Positions 49,861 to 53,228 of a stretch of 64,000 nt of DNA are shown here, piece after piece. Every line of letters begins with the position of its first letter. Position 1 is the stretch's first letter. Source of the stretch: Comamonadaceae bacterium. GTDB taxonomy: Bacteria; Pseudomonadota; Gammaproteobacteria; Burkholderiales; Burkholderiaceae_C. The notes beneath the pieces are model-generated. The model saw only the letters and a program-made list of their open reading frames with translations, had not been told where the DNA came from and ran no database searches. The position numbers and the translations under genes are program-made. The DNA is taken from positions 425,017-489,016 of the forward strand of contig JAIYAR010000009.1 of NCBI GenBank assembly GCA_027488985.1, read 5' to 3'.

Positions 49861-50673
49861 ATGGAGTTTGAAACCCTGAAGGTCACGCTGGACACGCACA
49901 TTGCCACCATCCGCCTGAACCGCCCCGACAAAGCCAACGCCATGAACGCCACCATGTGGCAAGAAATCCGCCAGGCCTTTGAATGGGTGGACCGCACACC
50001 CGAGGCGCGTGTGGCGGTATTGCAGGGCGAGGGCAAGTTGTTTTGCGCGGGTATCGACCTGCAAATGATGATGGGCATAGGCCCGCAGATTGCCAACGAG
50101 TGCGACGGCCGCATGCGCGAGTCCCTGCGCCGCATGATTCTGGACATGCAAGACACGCTCACCAGCCTGGAGCGCTGCCGCAAGCCGGTGCTGGCTGCCA
50201 TCCATGGCGGCTGCATTGGGGGCGGCATCGACCTCGTGACCTGCGCCGACATGCGCTACGCCAGCGCCGATGCGTTTTTCACCATCAAGGAGATCGACAT
50301 CGGCATGACCGCCGACGTGGGCACCCTGCAGCGCCTGCCCAAGCTGGTGGGCGATGGCATCACCCGCGAGCTGGCATACACCGGCCGCAAGATGGAAGCA
50401 GAAGAGGCCAAGAGCATCGGCCTGGTGAACCGCGTGTTTGAAAGCCGCGAAGCGCTCTACGCCGGGGTGCAGGAGATTGCAGCCACGATTGCGGCCAAGT
50501 CCCCACTGTCTATTCGCGGTACCAAAGAAATGATCACCTACGCCCGCGACCACAGCGTGGCCGACAGCCTGAACTACATCGCCACTTGGAACGCCGCCAT
50601 GCTGATGAGTAAGGACCTGACCGAGGCAATGACGGCGAACATGCAGAAGCGGGCTCCAGTGTTTAAGGACTGA
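49861..50673 (+). CDS. crotonase, delta(3,5)-delta(2,4)-dienoyl-CoA isomerase type
   Basis: 270 residues. The oxyanion-hole segments are LFCAGIDLQMMMG and AAIHGGCIGGGIDLVTCADM. The segment TIKEIDIGMTADVGTLQRLP matches the dienoyl-CoA isomerase subgroup, which has acidic residues at this place and the GTLQRLP run; the first Asp (EID) and second Asp (TAD) would be the catalytic acids. The enzyme moves double bonds so that FadH upstream can reduce the 2,4-dienoyl-CoA product. The ribosome site AAAGGAG precedes ATG 49861. Annotated alternatives are plain enoyl-CoA hydratase; the paired Asp supports the isomerase. Confidence 0.88.
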   Translation: MEFETLKVTLDTHIATIRLNRPDKANAMNATMWQEIRQAFEWVDRTPEARVAVLQGEGKLFCAGIDLQMMMGIGPQIANECDGRMRESLRRMILDMQDTLTSLERCRKPVLAAIHGGCIGGGIDLVTCADMRYASADAFFTIKEIDIGMTADVGTLQRLPKLVGDGITRELAYTGRKMEAEEAKSIGLVNRVFESREALYAGVQEIAATIAAKSPLSIRGTKEMITYARDHSVADSLNYIATWNAAMLMSKDLTEAMTANMQKRAPVFKD

Positions 50674-50704: not shown

Positions 50705-50810
50705 CTCGCAGCAGGCTGGGGGTACGTACCTCCGCTCGTGTCCCCCGCTCGCTCCAGCGGGCTCCTCCTTGACCTCGCTGCGGCACGCCCCCCCAGCCCG
50801 CTGCTGCGAA
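50705..50810. repeat. structured inverted repeat A between crotonase and metG
   Basis: Outer arms CTCGCAGCAGGCTGGGGG (50705-50722) and CCCCCCAGCCCGCTGCTGCGA (near 50789-50809) pair with one two-base bulge. Inside lies CGTGTCCCCCG, a stem CCCGCT/AGCGGG and CTCCTCCTTGACCT. These joiners recur in element B in the opposite orientation. It could act as a terminator or be a non-coding mobile repeat; no T-run follows. Confidence 0.7.
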
Positions 50811-50902
50811 GTGAGGCGAGGTGAAATATCCGTGGTTTACAAGTCACGTCACTTGAAAAGTGGAGCGGCTGTCTGTTTTGCGTAACGCACCAGCTCCGCG
50901 CA

Positions 50903-50990
50903 GGATCAGGCGGGCTGGGCGTTTTGCGTAGGTCAAGGAGGAGGCCGAAGGCCGGGGGACACGTAGCAAAACGCCCAGCTCGCCTGATCC
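50903..50990. repeat. structured inverted repeat B upstream of metG, related to A
   Basis: Arms of 25 bp at 50903-50927 and 50966-50990 pair with a single mismatch (the arms contain GGATCAGGCG and GCTGGGCGTTTTGC). The 38-base loop holds, on the minus strand, CGTGTCCCCCG, an inner stem GGCC/GGCC and CTCCTCCTTGACCT, so it is an inverted relative of element A with a different outer and inner stem. It ends 69 bp before the metG start. Confidence 0.8.
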
Positions 50991-51059: not shown

Positions 51060-53228
51060 ATGCCTCGCCAACTCTTCGTTACCACCGCCCTTCCCTACGC
51101 CAACGGCAACTTCCATATCGGTCACATCATGGAATACATCCAGGCCGACATCTGGGTGCGGTTCCAGCGCATGCAAGGCAACGCGGTGAACTTCTGCGGC
51201 GCGGACGACACGCACGGGGCGCCCATCATGATTGCCGCTGAAAAGGCTGGCGTAACCCCCGAGCAGTTCGTGGCCAACATCGCCGCCGGGCGCAAGCAGT
51301 ACCTGGAAGGCTTTCACATCAGCTTTGACAACTGGCACAGCACCCACTCGCCCGAAAACACCGAGCTGGCCCGCCAGATCTACCGTGACCTGCGCGACCG
51401 CGCTGATGGCAGCCTGATTGAGGTGCGCACCATCGAGCAGTTCTTCGACCCCGAGAAGAACATGTTCTTGCCGGACCGCTACATCAAAGGCGAATGCCCC
51501 AAGTGCCACGCCAAAGACCAGTACGGCGACAACTGCGAAGTCTGCGGCTCGGTCTACGCGCCCACCGACCTGATCAACCCTTACTCTGCTTTGTCCGGCG
51601 CCAAGCCCGAGCTCAAAAATTCTGAGCACTACTTCTTCAAGTTGTCTGACCCGCGATGCGTGGAGTTCCTGGAGAACTGGACGCAAGACGGCAAGCTGCA
51701 GCCCGAAGTGGCGAACAAGATCAAAGAGTGGTTCAGCGTGCGCACCAACCCGGACGGCACCCAAAGCGAAGGCCTGGGCGACTGGGACATCAGCCGCGAT
51801 GCGCCCTACTTCGGCATCGAGATTCCCGATGCGCCGGGCAAGTACTTTTATGTGTGGCTGGACGCGCCTGTGGGCTACCTGGCGTCGCTCAAGAACTGGT
51901 TTGACAAAGGCGGGCCCAAGGCCAAGCACGACGACGCTCGCAGCTTTGGCGAGTACATGGCCGCTGCCGACACCGAGCAGTACCACTTCATCGGCAAAGA
52001 CATCGTCACCTTCCACACGCTGTTCTGGCCCGCGATGCTGAAGTTCAGCGGCCGCAAAACACCCAACAACGTGTTCGTGCACGGCTTCCTGACCGTGAAC
52101 AACGGCGAGAAGATGAGCAAGAGCCGCGGCACCGGCCTCGACCCGCTCAAGTACCTGAGCCTGGGCATGAACGCTGAGTGGTTGCGCTACTACCTGGCGG
52201 CCAAGCTGAGCGCCCGCAATGAAGACATCGACTTCAACGCCGAAGACTTCATGCTGCGGGTGAACAGCGATTTAATCGGCAAGTTCATCAACATCGCTTC
52301 CCGCGCTGCCGGCTTTTTGACCAAGCGCTTTGAAGGCAAATTGACCAGCAACTTCGGCACCCAAGGCGGAGCCCTGCTGGCTGAAATCCGGGGTGCTTCT
52401 GCCGCGTTGGCGGCAAATTTCGAGGCCCGCGAATACAGCAAGGCCACCCGCGAAGTCATGATGCTGGCCGACAAGGTGAACGCCTATGTGGACCAGAACA
52501 AGCCTTGGGACTTGGCCAAAGACGTAGCCAACAACGAGGCACTGCACCAGGTGTGCTCGGTGCTCATCAACGCGTTTGACGCCCTGAGCCGTTACCTGGC
52601 CCCTGTGCTGCCAGGCCTGGCGCAAGCGGTGCAAAACTTTGTGGGCCGCCCCATGGACACCTGGGCTGTGGCCGGCGATGTGCAAGCCATCCAGCCCTAC
52701 CAACACCTGATGCAACGCGTCACCCCTGAGCAGCTGGAAGCGCTTTTTGAGCCAAAAGAGCCTCTAGCGCCCGCGGAAACTGCGCAAGCAGCTCCTAAAA
52801 AGGTAGCAAAGTCAGCGCCCGCAGCCGTGCCTGCCGACCCCAACGCTCCCGGCGGCGAGGCCTTGGCACCCACCATCAGCATTGACGATTTCGCCAAGAT
52901 CGACCTGCGCATTGCAAGAATAGTGAACTGCGAAGCGGTAGAGGGCTCCACCAAGTTGCTGCGCCTGACCCTCGATGTGGGCGAGAAGAACGCTGAAGGC
53001 CAGCCCACCACGCGCAATGTTTTCAGCGGTATTGCCAGCATGTACAAGCCCGAAGAGCTGGTAGGCCAACTCACGGTGCTGGTGGCCAACTTGGCACCGC
53101 GCAAGATGAAGTTCGGCATGTCGGAAGGCATGGTCATGGCAGCCAGCCATGCAGATGAAGGTGCCAACCCCGGCATCTACATCCTTAACCCCTGGCCCGG
53201 CGCCCAGCCTGGCATGCGCATCCACTAA
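51060..53228 (+). CDS. metG: methionyl-tRNA synthetase
   Basis: 722 residues, the long form. It charges initiator and elongator tRNA-Met. HIGH-like motif: [20 protein letters not shown] near residue 12; zinc site [19 protein letters not shown] near 145-163; KMSKS motif [20 protein letters not shown] near 348. Anticodon-binding helices follow to about 560. Residues ~607-722 are an EMAP-II/Arc1-type tRNA-binding dimer domain ([20 protein letters not shown]). The linker [20 protein letters not shown] is encoded by a copy of the dispersed short repeat. Start ATG 51060. Confidence 0.97.
52752..52809 (-). repeat. dispersed short repeat copy inside the metG linker
   Basis: Read on the minus strand: GCTACCTTTTTAGGAGCTGC, then TTGCGCAGTTTCC, GCGGGCGCTAGAGG and CTCTTTTGG. 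All blocks of the intergenic repeat are present in order with few changes. On the plus strand it is translated in frame and makes the Ala/Pro/Lys-rich linker between the anticodon-binding and C-terminal tRNA-binding domains. Confidence 0.72.

Follow-up and report, generated by a model that had tools for sequence, protein, structure and literature searches.

A dispersed family of REP-like hairpins with variable stems and a nearly invariant internal loop in Comamonadaceae and related bacteria

The two structured elements, A and B, that lie between positions 50705 and 50990 of the window (the whole 64,000-nucleotide stretch that was analyzed) belong to a dispersed family in which the stems vary, the pairing is kept and the internal loop is nearly invariant. 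Our reading of them, to which we give a probability of about 0.55 and for which no reader has been identified, is that the two make up a single inverted pair within a dispersed REP-like hairpin family that is non-autonomous, that works through its purine strand and that has its loop read in trans. The purine strand of an element is defined here as the one reading AGGTCAAGGAGGAG...CGGGGGACACG, and the other is called the CTCC strand. Upstream of the pair an enoyl-CoA hydratase-like gene (Pfam ECH_1) ends at 50673, and beyond the pair a gene which we take to be metG-like starts at 51060; we refer to the site as the ech-metG locus.

Both elements were found at the positions given for them by an earlier sequence-only reading, and its claim that they share joiners in inverted orientation also held. 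In element B the purine strand is the plus strand, with a 5' outer arm (50903..50927), the joiner AGGTCAAGGAGGAG (50930..50943), an inner hairpin GGCC GAA GGCC (50943..50953), the joiner CGGGGGACACG (50953..50963) in a type I context, and a 3' outer arm (50966..50990). In element A it is the minus strand; by position, A consists of an outer arm (50708..50735) that lies 3' on the purine strand, the joiner CGTGTCCCCCG (50737..50747; CGGGGGACACG on the purine strand), a TCCA-containing inner hairpin with the loop CC (50747..50762), the joiner CTCCTCCTTGACCT (50762..50775; AGGTCAAGGAGGAG on the purine strand) in a type II context, and the other outer arm (50777..50804). The joiners CGTGTCCCCCG and CTCCTCCTTGACCT of A are the exact reverse complements of CGGGGGACACG and AGGTCAAGGAGGAG of B, respectively. 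That the outer arms differ between A and B yet pair within each was likewise confirmed, the arms being 96% complementary in B and 79% in A, with three mismatches of the purine-wobble kind in A, one in B, and none of the mirror kind within the arms. The inner stem proposed for A required a small correction, since in the family register it reads GCTCGCT/AGCGGGC, enclosing the loop CC and including one T.G pair. Compared with dinucleotide shuffles, fold z-scores were -2.5 (plus strand) and -3.3 (minus strand) for A and -6.9 (plus) and -6.4 (minus) for B. A covariance model (R1) recovered A and B as the sole sites with E<=1 in the 64-kb window (77.6 and 68.0 bits), A and B themselves being among the 65 copies from which it was built.

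The spacer between the two hairpins (50811..50902, no strand) is unconserved among relatives and measures 43 nt in G050. Within it, on the plus strand, lies an unpaired arm-like sequence, GGCTGTCTGTTTTGCGTA (50867..50884), whose counterpart in G007 is one arm of a complete hairpin. The G007 sequence (L200/L053, compared with window positions 50867-50990) carries a core between other arms plus a leftover right arm of B, and its left arm is unpaired in relatives; either regeneration of an arm or deletion from an older tandem could have produced this state. Cargo between A and B was considered at the metG-like locus, and rejected: the open frames found there in G001 and G059 look unrelated, giving no autonomous element. 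In G050 the metG-like locus has a 2.2-kb gap, which contains what we take to be cobalamin genes.

The joiner CTCCTCCTTGACCT occurs in 25 exact copies in its own genome (3.56 Mb), with none for the reversed control, and GTGTCCCCCG lies upstream of it in all 25, each time with a foldable insert between them. The long-arm hairpin, whose arms are mostly copy-specific, is the minimum-energy fold in 22 of the 25 copies when 184-nt segments are folded, while the other three (L005, L006, L017) have other minimum-energy folds. A search pattern of the two joiners separated by exactly 16 nt, allowing at most three mismatches, matched 18 places versus 0 in the control. Throughout the family, outer arms of about 28 nt differ between copies, and pairing reaches to about position 28 and then ends. 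The internal loop, asymmetric and nearly invariant, reads AGGT[C/A]AAGGAGGAG and CGGGGGACACG on the purine strand and encloses an inner hairpin that is variable between copies. The arms are not arbitrary, as the family consensus is kept at some arm positions, and arms resembling those of B recur at many places.

In an alignment (A1) of 65 copies selected out of 192, the named structure paired in 84.4% of cells against 62.7% after shuffling, covariation was 0.494 against 0.144 in shuffled and 0.072-0.115 in slid controls, and 21 of the 24 pairs showed change on both sides. Two of the checks that the sequence-only reading had proposed, a genome-wide search and a covariation analysis, came out in its favor: further copies were found, and the covariation is strong with shuffle and slide controls. 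Two joiner contexts were distinguished. In type I, GCTxC..TyCGC, x and y covary, mostly as C:G, T:A or G:C, and when x is A, y is usually non-complementary; type II is CGTTC..TCACT or CGCTC..TCGCT. Allowing G-quadruplexes in RNA folding of three copies left the minimum-energy structure unchanged.

Pairing is kept by compensatory change at orthologous loci. Flank similarity joins copies of five genomes (G000, G007, G034, G050 and G059) into 25 groups, and in 74 ortholog-like comparisons covering 1554 pair columns there were 127 double changes that stayed Watson-Crick and 40 that did not, along with 222 one-sided changes and 1165 unchanged columns. Together with the further copies and the covariation, this same-locus change supports the earlier proposal that A and B represent a selected RNA or single-stranded DNA structure, and not simple duplication.

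Only the purine strand tolerates wobble pairs, and it does so regardless of how the neighboring genes are oriented. Across 257 distinct copies, arm positions 7-17 read on the CTCC strand gave 2412 Watson-Crick pairs, 315 A.C, 23 G.T and 77 other combinations; since each A.C read there corresponds to a G.U or G.T in the purine strand, it is the purine strand that is kept foldable. When changes were polarized by close relatives, GC>AC was seen 77 times versus 12 for GC>GT, TA>CA 51 versus 4 for TA>TG, CG>CA 48 versus 5 for CG>TG, and AT>AC 19 versus 4 for AT>GT, although the cells are not independent. Purine-wobble changes thus outnumber mirror changes from all four starting pairs and in both arms, which rules against a single sloppier arm. 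Within single genomes, A.C:G.T:other was 43:8:32 in G000, 33:10:15 in G007, 26:4:17 in G034 and 51:10:18 in G050, and it was 11:0:21 in 12 copies from other genera. Grouped by gene context, A.C:G.T was 62:4 where both neighboring genes lie on the other strand (31 copies), 65:7 where both lie on the purine strand, 42:3 between convergent genes, and less clear, at 10:3, in the five copies between divergent genes. Because copies are related by descent, these figures are counts and not probabilities, and a mutational origin of the asymmetry remains possible in that it is not strictly excluded. Replichore bias was absent among 21, 21 and 39 copies in G007, G059 and G048 (P 0.78, 0.70 and 0.93).

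The core of G050 is CTTTACC in 27 copies versus CTTGACC in one, and the TACC/GACC counts in other genomes are 0/25 in G000, 0/21 in G007, 0/20 in G044, 2/17 in G034 and 2/19 in G059. At 16 flank-matched loci, 22 of 23 G050 elements had TACC and 43 of 45 partners in four other genomes had GACC, although orthology is not proven for every pair. At the ech-metG locus the odd TCCA loop of A is common to G000, G007, G044 and G050 (the TCCA-containing inner hairpin being present there in G007, G044 and G050 as in A itself), the GCTAC..TACGC and GGCCTTCGGCC of B are common to G000, G030 and G050, and just the one core letter differs in G050. This retention of local hairpin features with a single differing letter argues against turnover and against block conversion. 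The data thus suggest that the core of G050 changed in place and family-wide, which would point to a trans-acting reader, itself not identified. Speaking against simple concerted change, both spellings exist within one genome in G003 (GACC/TACC 27/24), G009 (14/22), G022 (18/23), G055 (21/15) and G031 (12/12), where a reader must therefore accept both, while G048 (2/39), G026 (0/13), G014 (0/25) and G018 (0/12) are fixed on TACC.

Close pairs identified by pattern were in one inverted orientation in 38 of 38 distinct cases, orthologous pairs included, with the CTCC strands tail to tail, that is, with the purine hairpins 5' to 5'. The core-to-core distance was 93-120 nt in 28 of the 38 (range 72-235). 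By model, 36 of 37 neighbors in a table of 100 loci shared this orientation, the exception lying in a three-element cluster at L141. Pair spacers are unconserved. Lone copies of REPINs are expected to decay faster than doublets, and here Watson-Crick pairing was 0.846 in 83 "single" and 0.856 in 16 "twin" copies; partner detection here was crude, and the model finds many partners that the pattern missed. The pair orientation, like the strand polarity and the core switch, was beyond what the sequence-only reading could see.

Within the genus, the GACC pattern is present in 24 of 61 genomes, with mostly 12-30 copies or 0-2 per genome, and the model gave at least one match in 49 of the 61 and none in 12, which indicates that the family is dispensable. 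No more than 81 candidates were scored per genome in that search, and several of the 12 genomes without a match are incomplete. Order-wide, matches occurred in at least 11 of 250 genomes, from 7 of 121 genera and three families, a lower bound with 19 or fewer candidates scored. The exact pattern was found class-wide in 2 of 369 genomes, one of them outside the order, and a contig scan returned at least 115 stretches, all titled as beta-proteobacteria or their genera except one plain "bacterium". The same joiner letters are found in another family of the order, where the inner hairpins are longer. The placement of similar sequences in Comamonadaceae by the sequence-only reading was right but too narrow, as two other families and one genome of another order also have them. 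Among viral contigs, one contained the core pattern (L338, 7369-7412), and two plasmid records contained 27% of element B; the phage search found no phage carrier.

Among the 119 copies that had enough flanking sequence on each side, crude gene calling placed 30 within genes; the other 89 had both genes on the purine strand (34), both on the other strand (32), or lay between convergent (18) or divergent (5) genes, in a count made from those crude calls and without a control. An ORF-based count is not used here, since crude gene calling had placed 54 of 88 copies in spurious ORFs. In a second scan of 142 distinct copies, 21 were intragenic, 19 of them purine-sense versus 2, while the expectation from the TGA of the joiner alone is three open purine frames versus two open pyrimidine frames. 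Intragenic copies (L014/L017 and others) were observed to read in-frame on the purine strand, with a peptide like FAQVKEEPA.RAGDTEQ. Neither a fixed promoter box nor a U-tract was seen in a 251-copy profile, with no T-rich column after the hairpin, and sigma-70-like scores in the 77 nt upstream of 249 copies did not exceed those of the opposite strand, the downstream side or shuffles.

Filled and empty orthologous sites were both observed, indicating that copies come and go. An in-frame copy in a gene which we take to be putA-like is present in G000, G001 and G007, and the site is empty in G059, G044 and G050; in G034 the gene (L357) bears a deletion scar, with both arms in frame and the core gone. 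At the coding site L017 a copy is present in G000, G059, G007, G044 and G001, and the site is empty in G050 and, as judged by match gaps only, in G034. No target duplication could be defined.

We propose, by inference, that the purine strand would act single-stranded, as RNA or ssDNA, and that a trans-acting factor would read the internal loop, the stems merely presenting it. Shifts in the preference of this reader would lead to respelling of copies in place (CTTGACC/CTTTACC), while movement in trans would only seldom give new copies, and old copies would then be retained by selection. As reader, a protein that binds hairpins in a strand-specific manner would be most likely; it could be an RNA-binding protein or an ssDNA enzyme of the HUH/Y1 type, and we cannot decide between them. 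The tolerated wobbles and the purine-sense bias of intragenic copies favor RNA, and the independence from transcription direction and the missing promoters favor ssDNA, leaving the choice unresolved. Several points weigh against this main reading: no reader has been identified, core spelling is mixed in several genomes, there is neither the replichore bias that a lagging-strand ssDNA process might give nor the promoter signal that a stand-alone RNA would need, and 12 of the 61 genus genomes have no model match.

Two rivals are narrower versions of the main reading and overlap with it. The first, which remains possible, is that of a cis-acting RNA. Here the purine transcript would form its fold within mRNA 3' regions, coding RNA or antisense RNA, and either the ribosome or an RNA-binding protein would bind it; its loop holds AAGGAGGAG. 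In its favor, G.U is tolerated on one strand, copies lie near stop codons with just 5 of 89 intergenic copies between divergent genes (again by crude calls without a control), and 19 of 21 intragenic copies are purine-sense. Against it, the polarity is equally strong where both neighboring genes lie on the other strand (62:4), the promoter box, U-tract and sigma-70 enrichment are lacking, and the spacer of a pair can be 43 nt, or 4 nt between 34-nt flanks.

The second, which we consider unlikely, is that the resident RAYT/TIRYT transposase (HUH/Y1) both mobilizes and reads the elements, which would then be of REPIN/TIR type. A RAYT was found in 58 of the 61 genus genomes, as a single match in 54 of these. 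This near-universal, mostly single-copy occurrence speaks for such a partner, as do the long branch to the GACC clade, the joiner CGGGGGACACG holding GGGGACAC, which fits the TIRYT motif GGGGWSAS (PMC3733652), and the precedent of TnpA-REP, which binds ssDNA hairpins strand-specifically (PMC8266576). That branch measures 0.73, versus 0.074 for a neighboring MBL-fold gene, itself present at just 13 of the 52 loci, and is the longest inner RAYT branch except for the branch separating G003, whose own row is very long. RAYT is fast elsewhere too, however (G050 tip 0.35 versus 0.048), and the join of G050 in the RAYT tree is weak (94/77). No model matches were found near RAYT in sets of 10 and 59 loci (gene sets partly overlapping), no RAYT was found in 115 element loci, and 14 of 30 scorable Comamonadaceae RAYT loci are flanked by an inverted repeat of another type (GGGGTCAGATTCCAATTA; type TAATTGGGGTCAGATTCCAATTA; e.g. 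L288, L373, L380, L382). Clade and spelling are also mismatched: G009, G022, G025 and G055 have GACC despite RAYTs outside the GACC clade, and G029 has only TACC with its RAYT inside it. The RAYT-matchless genomes G011, G043 and G052 (66-88% complete) bear elements. Against RAYT as the cognate transposase, it flanks no element, has other repeats beside it in those 14 loci, and is present in the 12 element-free genomes (in G042 as a fragment) and in 142 of 150 family genomes, where the elements are patchy; the tyrosine transposase link suggested by the sequence-only reading was thus tested and is not supported. As a separate observation, RAYT is 51.5% identical between G000 and G050, where its neighbors are 83-97% identical and the neighborhood is conserved (L278-L287, L288-L337).

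Upkeep by mutation alone, in which a purine ssDNA hairpin lets one arm template correction of the other, is very unlikely. It would fit the independence from gene context and replichore and the G007 arm that is paired where relatives hold the same arm unpaired, but it leaves unexplained the invariant unpaired joiners, the family-wide core change and the purine-sense bias in genes. We think it equally improbable that the pairs are bidirectional terminators, in which a transcript from either side first meets a C-rich pyrimidine hairpin; the pair orientation, the position after stop codons and the rarity of pyrimidine-sense intragenic copies (2 of 21) agree with this, but there is no U-tract and the wobble tolerance is on the other strand. 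An ordinary decaying repeat without present function, as patchy distribution and gain and loss at loci might suggest, is extremely unlikely, being disfavored by the compensatory change at orthologous loci and the concerted core change.

Returning to the main reading, it has a bolder form that we regard as possible but less likely than not, in which tens of hairpins scattered through the genome form a network kept by the host. A single dedicated factor would read their single purine strand, as RNA or ssDNA, and a change in its preference would respell the word in place. If true, the loop would be the word and each locus would keep its own stem, with respelling at nearly every locus; such a system would parallel binding-site dialects, but with structure and strand specificity, and would differ from REPs, which spread by copying. 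Why dispersed palindromes are retained in bacterial genomes has long been an open question, and it becomes testable with this family, because the wobble asymmetry points to the strand that matters, the invariant loop to the expected site of a reader, and close relatives with two spellings provide a ready-made swap of specificity with which to look for it. Should a reader exist, a multi-copy signal can be respelled in place within a genome; without one, some mutational process having strand memory is needed, which would be equally surprising.

Among known systems, the conserved loops, covarying stems and one-strand wobble tolerance resemble those of curated structured RNAs (Rfam 15), but only a tRNA reached its Rfam 15 gathering score in the window, and the best match at the locus under a permissive threshold scored 16.3 bits against a cut-off of 84. 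A literature search that included the core strings found no description of the family, except that the supplement of PMC5217627 was not covered; that study found Rhodoferax ferrireducens richest in spaced motif pairs (140), and the family may possibly be among them. The DNA uptake sequence dialects of Neisseriaceae are similar in one respect, being a short genome-wide repeat respelled together with its reader. Our family differs from uptake sequences in having tens of copies, in lying within a structured hairpin and in having no known link to uptake. It resembles TIR repeats of TIRYTs/TIRtrons (TnpA-Y1 subclass 2.1) in that GGGGACAC fits GGGGWSAS and TIR families may be dimeric, but the RAYT genes here have other flanking repeats and no element nearby. 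REP and REPIN sequences are palindromes near gene 3' ends with compensatory changes and intragenic insertions, and occur in Pseudomonas fluorescens as inverted doublets of 71 or 110 bp (PMC3116915, PMC3733652). Our elements share the position near gene 3' ends, the inverted doublets, the compensatory changes and the copies inside genes; the constrained doublet spacing expected of REPINs and the presence or absence at orthologous sites expected of mobile elements are both observed. They depart from REP/REPIN in their approximately 28-nt arms, which differ by copy around an invariant internal loop, from REPINs in that no RAYT gene is flanked by the element, and from GTAG REPs in that GTAG is at the matching place in just 26 of 192 copies, as one state of a covarying position. 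We conclude that the family is a new, orphan variant of REP-like structured repeats, and that its nearest kind is REP/REPIN/TIR.
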